Shown piece after piece: positions 2,720-13,654 of a stretch of 64,000 nucleotides of DNA. Within the stretch, counting starts at the first letter, position 1. Each line of letters opens with the position of its first letter. Under the pieces are notes generated by a model. The model saw only the letters and a list, made by a program, of their open reading frames with translations, had not been told where the DNA came from and made no database searches. Both the position numbers and the translations under genes were made by a program. This DNA is from an uncultured Pelagibacteraceae bacterium (GTDB lineage: Bacteria > Pseudomonadota > Alphaproteobacteria > Pelagibacterales > Pelagibacteraceae): contig CACGJS010000001.1 in assembly GCA_902573385.1 (NCBI GenBank), positions 1 to 64,000 of the forward strand. Direction: 5' to 3'.

Positions 2720-3814
2720 TTAATTAGATTTCCAAATCCATGTTTTGGAAATCATGTATTTAAATATTGTGTCTAAGATAACACCTATTAAAGATGCATA
2801 AAGTGGATTTTTTGTAATTAAGTTAAAAGCTAAACTTGCAGATCCTATACTTGCAATAATACCAGGCAGATTAATTAAATAATATTTTGTTAAATTTATT
2901 ATTAATTTATTAAGTGAATTTGCACGGTTGTCGTAGAAGTTCAAATAATTATTTGCTAGGAAATTTATTGTAGCAGTAAAAAGAGTTGCAAATAAATGAC
3001 TTATATAAAAAGATACGTCTGCTAAATAATACATTCCAAATAAAATACTAAAATGAAATATAAAACCAATGCCTCCAATAATTATAAAACCTATAAATCT
3101 AGAAGAAATCATTCCATTAAACATATAAGATAATATTTGTGTAATAAAAGAAAATGCAACTTGTGAATTTAATTTTGAAGATCCATCGGTTCTAGACTCA
3201 AATTTAATTTCCTTTTCAATAATCTTAATTTTTTTTTTTTTATTTGAAAAAATAAGATCTAAAAGTACTTTAAATCCAGAATTAGCCAATAAAAAAAATT
3301 TTTTATTAAGCAAAGATACTTTTCCAGCGAAAAAACCAGTTAGAGGGTCTGATATATTTGTAGATAAAATTAATTGTAAAAATTTGTTAAAAAATTTACT
3401 TAGAAATAATCTTTTAGCAGAAATTACATCCATTTTTTTTAAATTTCTTACTCCAATGACAAGGTCATTAGCTTTAAGTTCATTAATTAAGTAGTTTATT
3501 TCAGAGGCTGAATGCTGTCTATCTCCATCCATTACAACAAAATATTCCCCCGTCATTGATTGAAGCCCAAATTTAATACTTTGAACTAAACCTTTATCAC
3601 TTTGTCTTTGAAAGAGTCTTACTTTTTCATTTTTATCAAATTTTTCCAAAATATTATTAACAGTAGAGTCTGTAGAACCATCATCCACTATTATAATTTC
3701 ATAATCTTTTTCCTTCATTTCAGATATGATCTCACTAATTAAAATAACAATATTATTCTCCTCATTTAGAGTTGGTATAATAATAGATATTTTTTCAGGT
3801 ATAAATTTTCTCAT
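2720..3814 (-). CDS. GT2 glycosyltransferase (DPM1/GtrB-like) fused to a GtrA-like membrane domain
   Basis: 364 residues in two parts. Residues 1 to about 225 are a GT-A fold glycosyltransferase: I-I-I-P-T-L-N-E-E-N, then V-D-D-G-S-T-D, then the metal-binding M-D-G-D-R-Q-H. Residues about 235-360 hold four hydrophobic segments resembling GtrA/DPMS flippase-like domains (start R-F-I-G-F-I-I-I-G-G, end K-Y-M-I-S-K-T-W-I-W). GtrB-type enzymes load a hexose on polyprenyl phosphate in the cytoplasm and GtrA is thought to flip the product, so the fusion would couple both steps. It is the last gene of a leftward operon, 9 bp after the GMC oxidoreductase. Sugar identity unknown. Confidence 0.85.
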   Translation of the reverse strand: MRKFIPEKISIIIPTLNEENNIVILISEIISEMKEKDYEIIIVDDGSTDSTVNNILEKFDKNEKVRLFQRQSDKGLVQSIKFGLQSMTGEYFVVMDGDRQHSASEINYLINELKANDLVIGVRNLKKMDVISAKRLFLSKFFNKFLQLILSTNISDPLTGFFAGKVSLLNKKFFLLANSGFKVLLDLIFSNKKKKIKIIEKEIKFESRTDGSSKLNSQVAFSFITQILSYMFNGMISSRFIGFIIIGGIGFIFHFSILFGMYYLADVSFYISHLFATLFTATINFLANNYLNFYDNRANSLNKLIINLTKYYLINLPGIIASIGSASLAFNLITKNPLYASLIGVILDTIFKYMISKTWIWKSN

Positions 3815-3823
3815 ATTTTTTTA

Positions 3824-5236
3824 CTAAGTGTTAAGCTTAGAGTGCAATTCATCTGCCAATCTTAATGATAATTGTATGATTGTATATGTTGGGTTTGTAT
3901 AACCGCCAGTTGTAAAGTTTGAACTTCCGGCAATATAAAGATTATTAATGTCATGTACTTTTAATTTTGAATTCACAACTGATATAGACTTATTTATTCC
4001 CATATTAGTACCTCCTAAATGATGATAACCTCCCATGTTTTTAAAATCATCTAAATTATATATATTTTCTTTAGCAGCTATTCTTCCAAGGTCTTCTTTA
4101 ATACAGAAATTTCCAAATTCTTCCAAAAAAGTTTTAGCAGCTAAAAGAGATTCTTTTGATTTATTATAAAACAAATTAACTACTGGTATATTTAATTTAT
4201 CTCTTTCATGAGGATCTAATTTAATTCTATTGTTTTTACTCGGTGGCTCTTCTATATTCATAAAAATATTTCCACATTTTAGGTCTTTTTTAAAAATTAG
4301 ATGAGCAATTTTTTTTCCATATTCAGGCGCTATACAAAGAATATCTTTAATTATTTCTTTGTATAATTTTGTATCTTCTTTAGCATTCATATAAATTGCT
4401 GCACTCAATATTTTTTTTTCTTCTATTAAGTTTTTACTAGCCGCAAAATGTAAAGGACCATCATAATCTATAAATTGATCATTTAATTTACTTTTAAGTT
4501 TTTTTTTATTAATTAATCCTATTCCAGAAATTATCCAAGGGTGATTCATCCAATATTGGCCTACAGGTAGGTTTTTATTTATTAAGCTACCATTTTTCTC
4601 TTTAGTCCAAAGTAAAATTCTAGAATTTTCTATACCACCACAAGCTAAAATAAAATATTTAGATTTAATTTTTTTTGATGAATTATTAAATAAACATATT
4701 GCAGATTGTATTTTTTTTTCAGACCCTTCAAAATGTGATAGCTGACAATTTAGTATAAGGTGAATTTTTTTTGATTTTTCGATATAAGTCTTATATTTTT
4801 CTGCAAATCTTACAGTGGAATATTTAAATTCAATTTGATTAAAATAATTATTTAACTTAGTTTTTTTGAATTGGTTTTTTATGTTAAGTATAGAACAAGT
4901 TTTTGTATTATAAGGGTCTAGGTCTTCTTTTTTAATTGGCCAATTTTTAAAATTATATGCTTCCATTGGTTTAGACCATCCGCCCCAGTGTCCAGAAGTT
5001 CCACCTAATTGGCGTAGCCTACTAGAAGATAGATCTGCTATATTATCTCCAATAATTTTTCCATTATATTGATCCTGTGAATCTTCACTATATTCTGACT
5101 CACCAGCTTCTATTATTACTGATGAAATATTTTTTTTTTCTAGCTCTAGAGCAACGGTCATTCCAGCTGGACCACTCCCAAATATAACTACTGGGAAATT
5201 ATTAAAGTCAATATCTTGAAATTTTCGAAAAATCAT
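3824..5236 (-). CDS. GMC-family FAD-dependent oxidoreductase
   Basis: 470 residues. The FAD ADP-binding motif G-S-G-P-A-G-M near residue 21 is followed by an acidic strand end (I-I-E-A-G-E). A G-G-T-S-G-H-W-G-G-W stretch near residue 78 is a GMC FAD contact. The C-terminal GMC domain contains Y-H-H-L-G-G-T-N-M-G, with the likely catalytic His, and N-L-Y-I-A-G-S-S-N-F. Family members oxidise alcohols or sugars. No signal peptide is present on this protein itself, but its ATG overlaps the stop of a 51-residue Tat-like peptide (TAATG), suggesting export or membrane anchoring through that partner. It lies with glycosyltransferases, so a sugar substrate is plausible but unproven. Confidence 0.85.
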   Translation of the reverse strand: MIFRKFQDIDFNNFPVVIFGSGPAGMTVALELEKKNISSVIIEAGESEYSEDSQDQYNGKIIGDNIADLSSSRLRQLGGTSGHWGGWSKPMEAYNFKNWPIKKEDLDPYNTKTCSILNIKNQFKKTKLNNYFNQIEFKYSTVRFAEKYKTYIEKSKKIHLILNCQLSHFEGSEKKIQSAICLFNNSSKKIKSKYFILACGGIENSRILLWTKEKNGSLINKNLPVGQYWMNHPWIISGIGLINKKKLKSKLNDQFIDYDGPLHFAASKNLIEEKKILSAAIYMNAKEDTKLYKEIIKDILCIAPEYGKKIAHLIFKKDLKCGNIFMNIEEPPSKNNRIKLDPHERDKLNIPVVNLFYNKSKESLLAAKTFLEEFGNFCIKEDLGRIAAKENIYNLDDFKNMGGYHHLGGTNMGINKSISVVNSKLKVHDINNLYIAGSSNFTTGGYTNPTYTIIQLSLRLADELHSKLNT

Positions 5237-5391
5237 TAATCATTTTCATTTAAATACCAAACAAAATTTTTTCTCTTTTTTAATTTTTTTTTAAATTTAT
5301 TGGTAATAAAATTAAAATTTAAAAAAGATAAAGAAAACAGCAGCATTAAATTTTTTTTTATAAAATTTCTTCTTGGTTTATTTTTATTCAT
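5236..5391 (-). CDS. Small Tat-signal-like peptide (51 aa), translationally coupled to GMC oxidoreductase
   Basis: An ATG at 5391 (reverse strand) opens a 51-residue frame whose TAA overlaps the oxidoreductase ATG as TAATG. The N-terminus carries P-R-R-N-F-I-K-K, close to the twin-arginine consensus RRxFLK, followed by a hydrophobic stretch (L-M-L-L-F-S-L-S-F-L), then a strongly basic segment and the C-terminus F-V-W-Y-L-N-E-N-D. By analogy with gluconate 2-dehydrogenase, whose small Tat-signalled subunit carries the FAD subunit through the Tat pore, it may be an export adaptor or anchor. That role is inference; the frame, the motif and the coupling are directly visible. Confidence 0.6.
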   Translation of the reverse strand: MNKNKPRRNFIKKNLMLLFSLSFLNFNFITNKFKKKLKKRKNFVWYLNEND

Positions 5392-5475: not shown

Positions 5476-5593
5476 TGCCTGGTGATTATTGCGAAGGGGT
5501 AATACCCGATCCCATTCCGAACTCGGAAGTCAAGCCCTTCAGCGCCGATGGTACTTTGTCTTAAGGCACGGAAGAGTAGGACATTGCCAGGCT
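5476..5593 (+). rRNA. rrf: 5S ribosomal RNA
   Basis: About 118 nt. Helix I is formed by GCCTGG (5477-5482) with CCAGGC (5587-5592). The loop B/helix III region contains the highly conserved CCGATCCCATTCCGAACTCG, and the 3' half contains GAAGAGTAGGACATTGCCAGGC. No 16S or 23S gene is present in the window: upstream is the GMC oxidoreductase operon on the other strand, and rpmJ begins 15 nt downstream. Separation of 5S from 16S-23S is known in SAR11. The exact ends are estimated from helix I. Confidence 0.95.
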
Positions 5594-5607: not shown

Positions 5608-5733
5608 ATGAAAATTAAAAGCTCGCTTAAATCCCTAAAAAAAAGAGATCTAAATTCTAAATTAGTTCGTAGAAGAGGTAGAGTTTATATTATTAATAAA
5701 ACAAACCCAAAATTTAAAGCAAGACAGAAGTAA
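5608..5733 (+). CDS. rpmJ: 50S ribosomal protein L36 (bL36), zinc-free type
   Basis: 41 residues: it begins [13 protein letters not shown] and ends [12 protein letters not shown], matching the alphaproteobacterial L36 pattern (S-L-K-S-L-K-x-R ... G-R-V-Y-x-I-N-K-T-N-P-x-F-K-A-R-Q). The Cys/His zinc ligands of the C+ type are absent, as in the YkgO-like C- form. It starts 15 nt after the 5S rRNA with no terminator between, so it may ride on the 5S promoter. Confidence 0.93.
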
Positions 5734-5738
5734 TTTTT

Positions 5739-5849
5739 ATGGATATTCAAAACCATAAAAATAAATGGGATAATTTCATTAAATTTATGTTGTGGGGAAC
5801 TGTCGCGGCAATAGTAGTATTAGTTCTAATAACGATGTTCTTATTGTAG
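5739..5849 (+). CDS. Small aa3-type cytochrome c oxidase subunit IV-like protein
   Basis: 36 residues with one transmembrane helix. The N-terminal part is short and polar (M-D-I-Q-N-H-K-N-K-W-D-N-F), followed by F-I-K-F-M-L-W-G-T-V-A-A and a Val/Ile/Leu-rich membrane span. This matches the layout of the bacterial aa3 oxidase subunit IV family (COX4_pro_2), and in many alphaproteobacteria this small gene lies directly before pntAA, as here. It lies 5 bp after rpmJ and 9 bp before pntAA. The identification rests on size, topology and synteny. Confidence 0.65.
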   Translation: MDIQNHKNKWDNFIKFMLWGTVAAIVVLVLITMFLL

Positions 5850-5858
5850 GTTTCGTTT

Positions 5859-6947
5859 ATGAAAATTACTTCAATTTTAGAAGATAAAAAAATCGAAAAA
5901 AGAATAGCTGTTACACCTGATGTAGCTAAAAAATATATAGGTTTAGGTTTTGAATTATTTTTACAAGAAAATTATGGATTGCACTTGGGTATTAGTGATG
6001 GTGAATATAAAGCAATAGGAGTAAATTTTCTTAAGGATGAAAAAGAATTAATTAATAGTTCAGATGTAATTATCCAGTTAGGTTTACCTTCAGATGATAA
6101 ACTTTCATTAATTCGAGAAAATCAGATAGTTATTGGAATTTTAAATCCTTACGTTAATAAAGAAAAAATAGAAAATTTTACAAAAAAAAAAATTAATTTT
6201 TTTTCTTTAGAACTTTTACCAAGAATAACTAGAGCACAATCCATGGATATACTTTCTTCTCAAGCTAATCTTGCTGGATATAAGGCTGTGGTAGAATCAT
6301 TTGCTTATTTCGAAAAAGCTATACCAATGATGATGACTGCTGCAGGAACAGTGCCAGCAGCAAAAGTATTAGTTGTTGGAGCAGGTGTTGCGGGCTTACA
6401 AGCTATTGCAACTGCCAAAAGAATGGGTGCGATTGTATTTGCAACAGATGTCAGAATGGCATCTAAAGAACAAGTAGAAAGTTTAGGTGGTAAATTTTTA
6501 ACAGTTGAGGGTGCGGAAAATCTTGAGACAGAAGAAGGGTATGCCAAAGAAGCTTCTGAAGATTTTAAAAAGAAACAAGAAGACCTGTTAGGTGAAACTT
6601 TAAAAAAAATAGATATTGTAATTTGCACAGCTTTAATTCCTGGAAAAAAAGCACCAATAATAATTAAAGAAGAAATGATAAATAATATGAAAGTAGGTTC
6701 AGTGATTTATGATTTAGCTGCTATTCAGGGAGGTAATACTATTTTTACAGAAGTAGATAAAGTAATAGATAAAAAAGGCGTTAAAATAATGGGTGAAAAA
6801 AATATTTTAAATAAATTGCCAATCTCTGCGTCAAGTTTATACGCAAAAAACGTATTTAATTTTGTTGTAAATCTATATGATAAAGAAAATAAGAAAATTA
6901 ATATTAACTTAGAAGATGAGATCATTGAAAAAACATTAATAAAATAA
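5859..6947 (+). CDS. pntAA: NAD(P) transhydrogenase subunit alpha part 1 (PntAA)
   Basis: 362 residues, homologous to the soluble NAD(H)-binding domain I of proton-translocating transhydrogenase (alanine dehydrogenase/PNT family). The N-terminal lobe starts I-L-E-D-K-K-I-E-K-R-I-A-V-T-P, with a Q-S-M-D-I-L-S-S-Q-A-N-L-A-G-Y-K segment. The Rossmann motif G-A-G-V-A-G lies at residues 174-179, and D-V-R lies near residue 200. The enzyme exchanges hydride between NADH and NADP+, driven by the proton gradient. As in other alphaproteobacteria, the alpha subunit is split, and the membrane part is the next gene. Confidence 0.95.
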   Translation: MKITSILEDKKIEKRIAVTPDVAKKYIGLGFELFLQENYGLHLGISDGEYKAIGVNFLKDEKELINSSDVIIQLGLPSDDKLSLIRENQIVIGILNPYVNKEKIENFTKKKINFFSLELLPRITRAQSMDILSSQANLAGYKAVVESFAYFEKAIPMMMTAAGTVPAAKVLVVGAGVAGLQAIATAKRMGAIVFATDVRMASKEQVESLGGKFLTVEGAENLETEEGYAKEASEDFKKKQEDLLGETLKKIDIVICTALIPGKKAPIIIKEEMINNMKVGSVIYDLAAIQGGNTIFTEVDKVIDKKGVKIMGEKNILNKLPISASSLYAKNVFNFVVNLYDKENKKININLEDEIIEKTLIK

Positions 6948-12310: not shown

Positions 12311-13654
12311 ATGAAAATTTTTATTTTTGATCCATATAAGAGTGGAAATTTTAAGATAAACAAAGATCAAGCAGGAGGTTATGGCACATCTAACGAGATA
12401 GGGAATAATATTTTTTCATTAACTTTAGCGGCATTTTTAAAAAAAAATATAAATTATGCTCCTATGTTTGCAATTTATACATTTGCTGTATTAAAAAATA
12501 AAGGTTTTGATGTTGAATATACAAAAAGTTTTAACGATATTAAAAGCTGTGATTTATGTTTAGTGACTTCATCAATAGTCTGTCATGAAACAGAAATATA
12601 TTATTTAAAAAAACTAAAAGAACAAAATATTTATACAGGTGTTATAGGATCTTTCTGCACTACATTACCGGAACCTTATCTAAAAGAGTCTAATTTTGTT
12701 GTAAGTGGAGAACCTGAGTTTTTTTTTCTTAATGAAGAAGTGAAAAAAATTATACATGAAAAACGATCTGGTATTTTAAAAAATATAAATAATAATAAAC
12801 TTGATGATTTACCATATCCATCTTGGGAGCAAACTTTTAAATACGGCGGTCCAAGAGCTTTTTTTATTTCTTTATTTAGAAAAACTATTCCAATTTTATA
12901 TACCCGAGGCTGCCCATACTCTTGCTTTCATTATTGTACATATCCTACTCAACAAGGTAGAGCAGTTAGAAGAAGGTCAGTTGAAAACTTGATTGGGGAA
13001 ATTAATTTTTGGGCAAAAAAATATAATATTAAAAATTTTCTTTTTAGAGATCCAGTTTTTTCTATAAATAATAAAGTTACACTTGAAGTGTGTAAAAAAA
13101 TAAAAGACTCTGGACTTAAAATAAAATTTGGTATTGAAACACATCTAAATAATATATCTTTAGATTTAGCAAAGGAACTTTACGATTGTGGCCTTCGATA
13201 TGTAGAAGTTGGGATCGAGTCAGTAACTGATGAAGTAATTACTGCGTCTAAAAGATTTTCTATCGAAAAAGAAAAACAAATCAGTTTAATTAAAAATATT
13301 GAAAAAATTGGAATAAAAATAAAAACTATGTTTATTTATGGTCTTCCACTTGACGATCTAGAAACTTGTCAAAATTCTTTAAATTTTGCAAAAAAAATTA
13401 ATTCATCATACAGTCAATATAATATTTTTACCCCTTATCCTGGAACTCCAATATATAAAGAATATCAAAAAAAAATAATGTCAAATAAATATGAAGATTT
13501 TTCACAATCCAATTTAGTTTTCACGCATGAAAAATTAAGTAAGCAAGACCTATCAATGATGATAAGTAAAAGTTATAGAGATTATTATTTACGCAAAGAG
13601 TATTTTATAAAAATGTTTAAAAATTTTTTTAAACAAATGTCTATTAACATTTAA
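12311..13654 (+). CDS. B12-binding-type radical SAM protein with CX3CX3C cluster motif (paralogue of 574-1941)
   Basis: 447 residues. The N-terminal domain shows the same K-D-Q-x-G-x-Y-G-T and S-S-I-V-C-H-E-T-E motifs as its paralogue. The cluster motif is C201-PYS-C205-FHY-C209 (codons TGC 12911, TGC 12923, TGT 12935), again CX3CX3C, followed by Y-P-T-Q-Q-G-R. The radical SAM core continues with V-G-I-E-S-V and F-T-P-Y-P-G-T-P-I-Y. It is placed 4 bp before a GT2 gene and in line with a deacetylase, so a tailoring step on a lipid-linked sugar or its lipid is plausible. The reaction is unknown. Confidence 0.85.
   Translation: MKIFIFDPYKSGNFKINKDQAGGYGTSNEIGNNIFSLTLAAFLKKNINYAPMFAIYTFAVLKNKGFDVEYTKSFNDIKSCDLCLVTSSIVCHETEIYYLKKLKEQNIYTGVIGSFCTTLPEPYLKESNFVVSGEPEFFFLNEEVKKIIHEKRSGILKNINNNKLDDLPYPSWEQTFKYGGPRAFFISLFRKTIPILYTRGCPYSCFHYCTYPTQQGRAVRRRSVENLIGEINFWAKKYNIKNFLFRDPVFSINNKVTLEVCKKIKDSGLKIKFGIETHLNNISLDLAKELYDCGLRYVEVGIESVTDEVITASKRFSIEKEKQISLIKNIEKIGIKIKTMFIYGLPLDDLETCQNSLNFAKKINSSYSQYNIFTPYPGTPIYKEYQKKIMSNKYEDFSQSNLVFTHEKLSKQDLSMMISKSYRDYYLRKEYFIKMFKNFFKQMSINI

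Follow-up and report, generated by a model that had tools for sequence, protein, structure and literature searches.

The Tat pathway carries folded, cofactor-bearing proteins, and a signal-less partner can ride with a signal-bearing one. A locus in an uncultured Pelagibacteraceae bacterium (SAR11) raised the question whether the signal-bearing partner can be reduced to little more than the signal itself. At this locus a very small gene with a Tat-like motif runs into the gene of a GMC oxidoreductase. The gene pair was characterized in the window, i.e., the whole stretch of 64,000 nucleotides that was analyzed, and it was compared with homologous loci in SAR11 and in other bacteria.

The Gene Pair and Its Genomic Context

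The small gene comprises 51 codons on the minus strand (5236–5391), from an ATG at 5391 to a TAA stop at 5238–5236, and its translation is MNKNKPRRNFIKKNLMLLFSLSFLNFNFITNKFKKKLKKRKNFVWYLNEND. The peptide contains the twin-arginine motif R-R-N-F-I-K-K (residues 7–13; 5353–5373, minus strand), a hydrophobic core, a Lys-rich region and the C-terminal sequence FVWYLNEND, of which W-Y-L-N-E-N-D (5239–5259, minus strand) is the proposed docking motif. The gene ends in TAATG, and one base is common to its stop codon and to the ATG at 5236 of the oxidoreductase gene (3824–5236, minus strand), which encodes the proposed cargo of 470 amino acids. An earlier note on this DNA had described a small frame that ends in this junction, and both genes were borne out; the strand had been absent from that note. 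It had also claimed that the oxidoreductase has no signal of its own, and this turned out to be correct. An N-terminal signal was absent from the oxidoreductase in the window and from its relatives; the FAD-binding GxGxxG and the GMC/FAD domain begin about 20 residues in, so that there is no room for a signal.

The oxidoreductase gene is followed, after a gap of 9 nt, by a gene for a family 2 glycosyltransferase with a C-terminal GtrA/DPMS transmembrane domain (2720–3814, minus strand), which is likely part of the same transcript. On the other side, a 5S rRNA gene (5478–5592, plus strand) is oriented divergently from the pair and marks the edge of the SAR11 hypervariable region HVR2. This region was reported to contain mainly cell-surface genes and to be flanked by the only 5S and 23S genes of SAR11 (PMC2217521). 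Because HVR2 is bordered in this way and the 5S rRNA gene adjoins the pair, the two genes appear to form the unit at the very edge of HVR2. Two radical-SAM genes of similar sequence are located one on each side of the pair (574–1941 and 12311–13654). In addition, a match to the pntA sRNA family (RF01810) was found at 5735–5796, between an rpmJ-like frame (5608–5733) and a pntA-like gene at 5859.

Conservation of the Peptide in SAR11

The oxidoreductase was present in 22 of 397 genomes of the order, this genome included. It is thus an accessory gene, which matches the expectation for HVR2. The earlier note had suggested looking for the same small frame upstream of GMC genes in related genomes, and this search was positive. 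Directly upstream and on the same strand, 20 of the 21 SAR11 relatives had a frame of 41–59 amino acids with the same build, i.e., a Tat-like motif and a C-terminal W...D. The sole relative without such a frame was the most divergent one, which lies on a contig of 3.2 kb (L022), and for the homologues with a readable gene context the count was 20 of 20. In 21 aligned SAR11 peptides the second Arg, the Trp and the terminal Asp were invariant and the Leu nearly so (at least 90%), and the remainder varied freely; KR replaced RR in 5 of the 20 relatives. The gene arrangement was constant, with a junction spacing of −14 to +19 nt in the SAR11 pairs. Stop and start overlapped in 17 of 20 SAR11 pairs and in 39 of 66 pairs from other bacteria, and the remaining pairs were 0–19 nt apart.

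The dN/dS values of the peptide were below 1, about 0.15–0.35 in most close pairs and up to 0.76 in some. They were 0.35 in SAR11 (one pair), mostly 0.15–0.4 in Mesorhizobium (up to 0.76), 0.14–0.36 in Pseudomonas and 0.15–0.22 in Halomonas. Judged from these ratios, the peptide is encoded by a real gene under purifying selection. The distances of peptides and oxidoreductases in SAR11 were weakly correlated (r = 0.23, permutation p = 0.006), which shows co-inheritance of the peptide and the enzyme, not contact between them.

Short and Long Forms of the Peptide in Other Bacteria

Additional loci were gathered by searches with oxidoreductase alignments as query; a contig search with the single window oxidoreductase yielded no match, but the alignment as query did find loci. 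They were from Alpha-, Beta- and Gammaproteobacteria, Bacteroidota, Myxococcota, Acidobacteria and others. The small frame is conserved with the oxidoreductase far beyond SAR11. A partner was defined as a frame adjoining the GMC gene with RR or KR, a hydrophobic stretch and W-x-[LIVM] near the C-terminus. Such a partner was present at 108 of 124 GMC loci, compared with 70 of 4259 (1.6%) other frames in the same DNA; this is an enrichment and not a census, because the loci were chosen by similarity to enzymes that often have a partner and several adjacent frames were tried per locus. A few of the 108 partners look spurious (e.g., L125 and L082), and at 16 of the 124 loci no partner was found by this definition, some partners having been missed or lying elsewhere.

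The sequence in the window is very AT-rich and Lys-rich, as would be expected if the peptide were a spurious frame in AT-rich DNA. This explanation was contradicted by the conservation, the dN/dS values below 1, the motif and the position of the frame. Together with the background count, the conservation ruled it out, and its probability is regarded as negligible.

RR was present in 101 of 107 partners and KR in 6. The KR partners were the five SAR11 peptides and L125, which looks spurious, and the other members from outside SAR11 had RR. The distance from the RR to the W fell into two classes, a short form with 27–52 residues (65 members, including L125 at 26) and a long form with mostly 84–129 residues (42 members). 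The short form was encoded upstream of the oxidoreductase in nearly all cases, often with an overlap, and was found in Mesorhizobium, Pseudomonas, Halomonas and others. Typical C-terminal ends were VEVNGWILKRSDLA in Mesorhizobium, VVVNGWLLKSSDR in Halomonas and VVINGWVLPAQYF in Pseudomonas. The whole length of the SAR11 peptides matched the other short peptides in a profile comparison with a probability of 92%, and by this measure the SAR11 peptide belongs to one family with the other short forms. The long form has 125–140 amino acids and was encoded upstream or downstream of the oxidoreductase in Bacteroidota and others; a typical end in Bacteroidota was VMVDGWILSRTEARQCALFSL.

Both forms are encoded beside the same enzyme family, and they share the Tat signal and a W-x-L that is followed by an acidic residue. 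In contrast to the short form, the long form ends in V-[DN]-G-W-[VI]-L-S-x-[TS]-E, and it has an extra helical domain and a helix after the motif. When one long form was modeled with AlphaFold2, the partner was predicted with confidence to fold into a domain, in which the W motif is part of a hairpin (pLDDT about 95) that is followed by a helix. A profile comparison of the two forms aligned only the signal, and thus their putative homology is based on the common motif and position.

The Oxidoreductase Is Related to the Cargo of a Known Tat Hitchhiker

The enzyme is a member of the GMC oxidoreductase superfamily, as revealed by a match to the GMC C-terminal domain (PF05199, 1.6e-15). The glycines of the GxGxxG, H405 and the P-T of the N-P-T region were invariant in the alignment. 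The nearest solved folds were the large (catalytic) subunit of fructose dehydrogenase and the alpha subunit of the Burkholderia cepacia glucose dehydrogenase (BcGDH), followed by pyranose oxidases. Pyranose 2-oxidase and C-glycoside oxidase have a close GMC fold; to our knowledge neither of them uses a Tat partner. Against the NCBIfam model for pyranose oxidase the enzyme sequence scored 63 bits, compared with a cut-off of 545 bits.

In BcGDH, the role of Tat hitchhiker is taken by the gamma subunit of 168 amino acids, which is needed for proper folding and secretion (PMC6719666). Like the peptide, BcGDH gamma and FdhS, which are members of Gluconate_2-dh3 (PF13618), combine a Tat signal on a small protein with a signal-less FAD subunit of the GMC fold. 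They differ in size, because the known gamma subunit has a folded mature part of 121 amino acids, whereas the peptides of 41–59 amino acids have almost no mature part. The earlier note had called the peptide smaller than the known gamma subunits, and this is certainly the case. A multihaem cytochrome gene was not seen next to the pair in the window.

Membership in Gluconate_2-dh3 was ruled out. Neither the short nor the long forms had a Pfam match to this family, an hhalign comparison with both forms revealed only the RR segment in common, and a member of the family was not found in this genome. No other family of Pfam or NCBIfam matched either form (for the long form on NCBIfam, this applies to the Jannaschia variant only), and a search of open-licence papers yielded no description of the short or long peptides. 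TIGR02811 (formate dehydrogenase region TAT target) also covers a small protein with a Tat signal that is encoded next to a redox enzyme; however, its gene context is different, and the Halomonas peptide scored 17.7 bits, far below the cut-off of 48.45 bits. The simplest reading of these comparisons is that the peptide works like a hitchhiker subunit, yet is outside the known hitchhiker family.

Tat Hitchhiker, Membrane Anchor or Maturation Subunit

The small partner carries a twin-arginine signal, as judged by the motif and the hydrophobic stretch; few features of the peptide are as well conserved as the twin arginine. The Tat translocase subunit TatC was found in 38 of 42 SAR11 genomes; it was not found in this genome, which is 61% complete. 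A cofactor-bearing cargo without signal and, in most SAR11 genomes, a translocase are both present. Based on the conserved RR, the presence of TatC in SAR11 and the relationship of the enzyme fold to the catalytic subunit of BcGDH, the complex of which has a hitchhiker gamma subunit, it is proposed with a probability of roughly 0.7 that the peptide acts as a Tat hitchhiker of minimal size. The export signal would be encoded apart from its cargo and would consist of a signal helix and a docking motif of about ten residues. The earlier note had already suggested a minimal hitchhiker. The peptide is indeed conserved together with the oxidoreductase, its twin arginine and C-terminal motif are fixed, and the nearest folds of the enzyme include a known hitchhiker cargo; binding, export and a periplasmic location are what we infer from these observations. 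An AlphaFold2 model of a SAR11 peptide-enzyme fusion (L015, in frame, with the stop read as a residue) had a mean pLDDT of 84.6 for the enzyme and below 50 for the peptide. It thus lent no structural support to docking, although, with few paired rows, it says little either way.

Alternatively, the peptide could foremost be a membrane anchor, i.e., a single-pass signal-anchor with a secondary or absent role in Tat targeting, and the enzyme would be located at the cytoplasmic face or be inserted by another route. An A-x-A cleavage motif was present in none of the 20 SAR11 peptides and in 22 of the 44 other short forms, the only hydrophobic stretch of the peptide spans about 18 residues, and the KR of the five SAR11 peptides is a weaker Tat motif, which also counts against the proposed hitchhiker. 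In contrast, a plain anchor would hardly account for the RR in 101 of 107 partners, and a related FAD subunit is a known Tat hitchhiker cargo. Furthermore, the hydrophobic core is flanked by basic residues on both sides, an arrangement that fits a Tat signal better than an anchor inserted by Sec. A mere anchor is therefore considered unlikely. The earlier note had mentioned an anchor as the alternative to the hitchhiker, and anchoring may hold in addition to it: because the A-x-A is absent, the SAR11 peptide may escape cleavage and thereby keep the enzyme at the membrane, an argument that is weakened by the low alanine content of SAR11.

As a further alternative, the peptide could be a cytoplasmic maturation or stabilizing subunit, which would be involved in FAD insertion or folding and would resemble a Tat signal only secondarily. 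BcGDH gamma was reported to be needed for proper folding besides secretion (PMC6719666), and the long form has a predicted folded helical domain. However, the short form consists of a signal helix, about ten residues and little else, and its best-kept part is the twin arginine, together with the W and the D. A function solely in maturation thus seems rather improbable.

A Putative Mechanism of Export

According to the hitchhiker reading, translation of the peptide would immediately precede that of the oxidoreductase, and the two would probably be linked by stop-start coupling. In the cytoplasm, the peptide would then dock with its C-terminal W-x-L-x-x-x-D on the folded, FAD-loaded oxidoreductase. 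TatC would next read the RR helix, and the peptide and the oxidoreductase would cross the membrane in the folded state. The SAR11 peptide would probably not be cleaved and would keep the oxidoreductase attached to the inner membrane on its outer side. There the enzyme might oxidize a sugar from the surface polysaccharide that the HVR2 genes around the pair produce. Relatives of the enzyme in SAR11 and Pseudomonas are encoded next to genes for an O-antigen ligase, GT87, a flippase and glycosyltransferases, which suggests that a sugar of a surface polysaccharide is the substrate. In 15 of 21 SAR11 oxidoreductases a cysteine in C-x-[AS]-P is followed by a second cysteine about 19–20 residues on, and the other 6 have only the first. 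The cysteine pair could be a disulfide, which would fit a periplasmic location.

If this reading is correct, the peptides would be the smallest Tat hitchhikers known to us, with the address split from the cargo in fewer than 60 residues, and they could reveal what a partner needs for Tat carriage, possibly one tryptophan-centred motif. Many GMC enzymes without a visible signal would then be periplasmic, which bears on the modification of surface sugars in SAR11 and other bacteria, and a docking motif as short as this could be used to tag folded proteins for export. Even odds are given to the more general proposal that split Tat signals form a widespread family, as yet unnamed, whose members would comprise about 40–60 residues with a signal helix and a docking motif of ten residues and be translated just before the enzyme. 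For periplasmic sugar oxidoreductases encoded at surface-polysaccharide loci, they would be export tags that can be detached and, if left uncleaved as would be the case in SAR11, would also tether the enzyme to the membrane.

Annotation and Variants of the Small Gene

Annotation can easily overlook such small genes or assign them a wrong start. The partner of Azospirillum thermophilum (WP_146214751.1; L041:7763-7951) is mis-started in the public annotation, i.e., the annotated start omits the RR motif, and an in-frame reading from further upstream restores it. Several unusual arrangements were also observed. At one locus (L049) two GMC genes are arranged in tandem, and each has its own short Tat-W peptide upstream. 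At another locus (L139) the partner is encoded downstream of the GMC gene, and the Tat signal and GWSLSETE belong to a far longer protein, seemingly a fusion with another domain. Lastly, on a Jannaschia plasmid the GMC gene is followed by a gene for a Tat-signal protein of 130 amino acids (L042:6542-6934), which ends in VVVADRFVVARSE; in this variant of the motif an F takes the place of the W.
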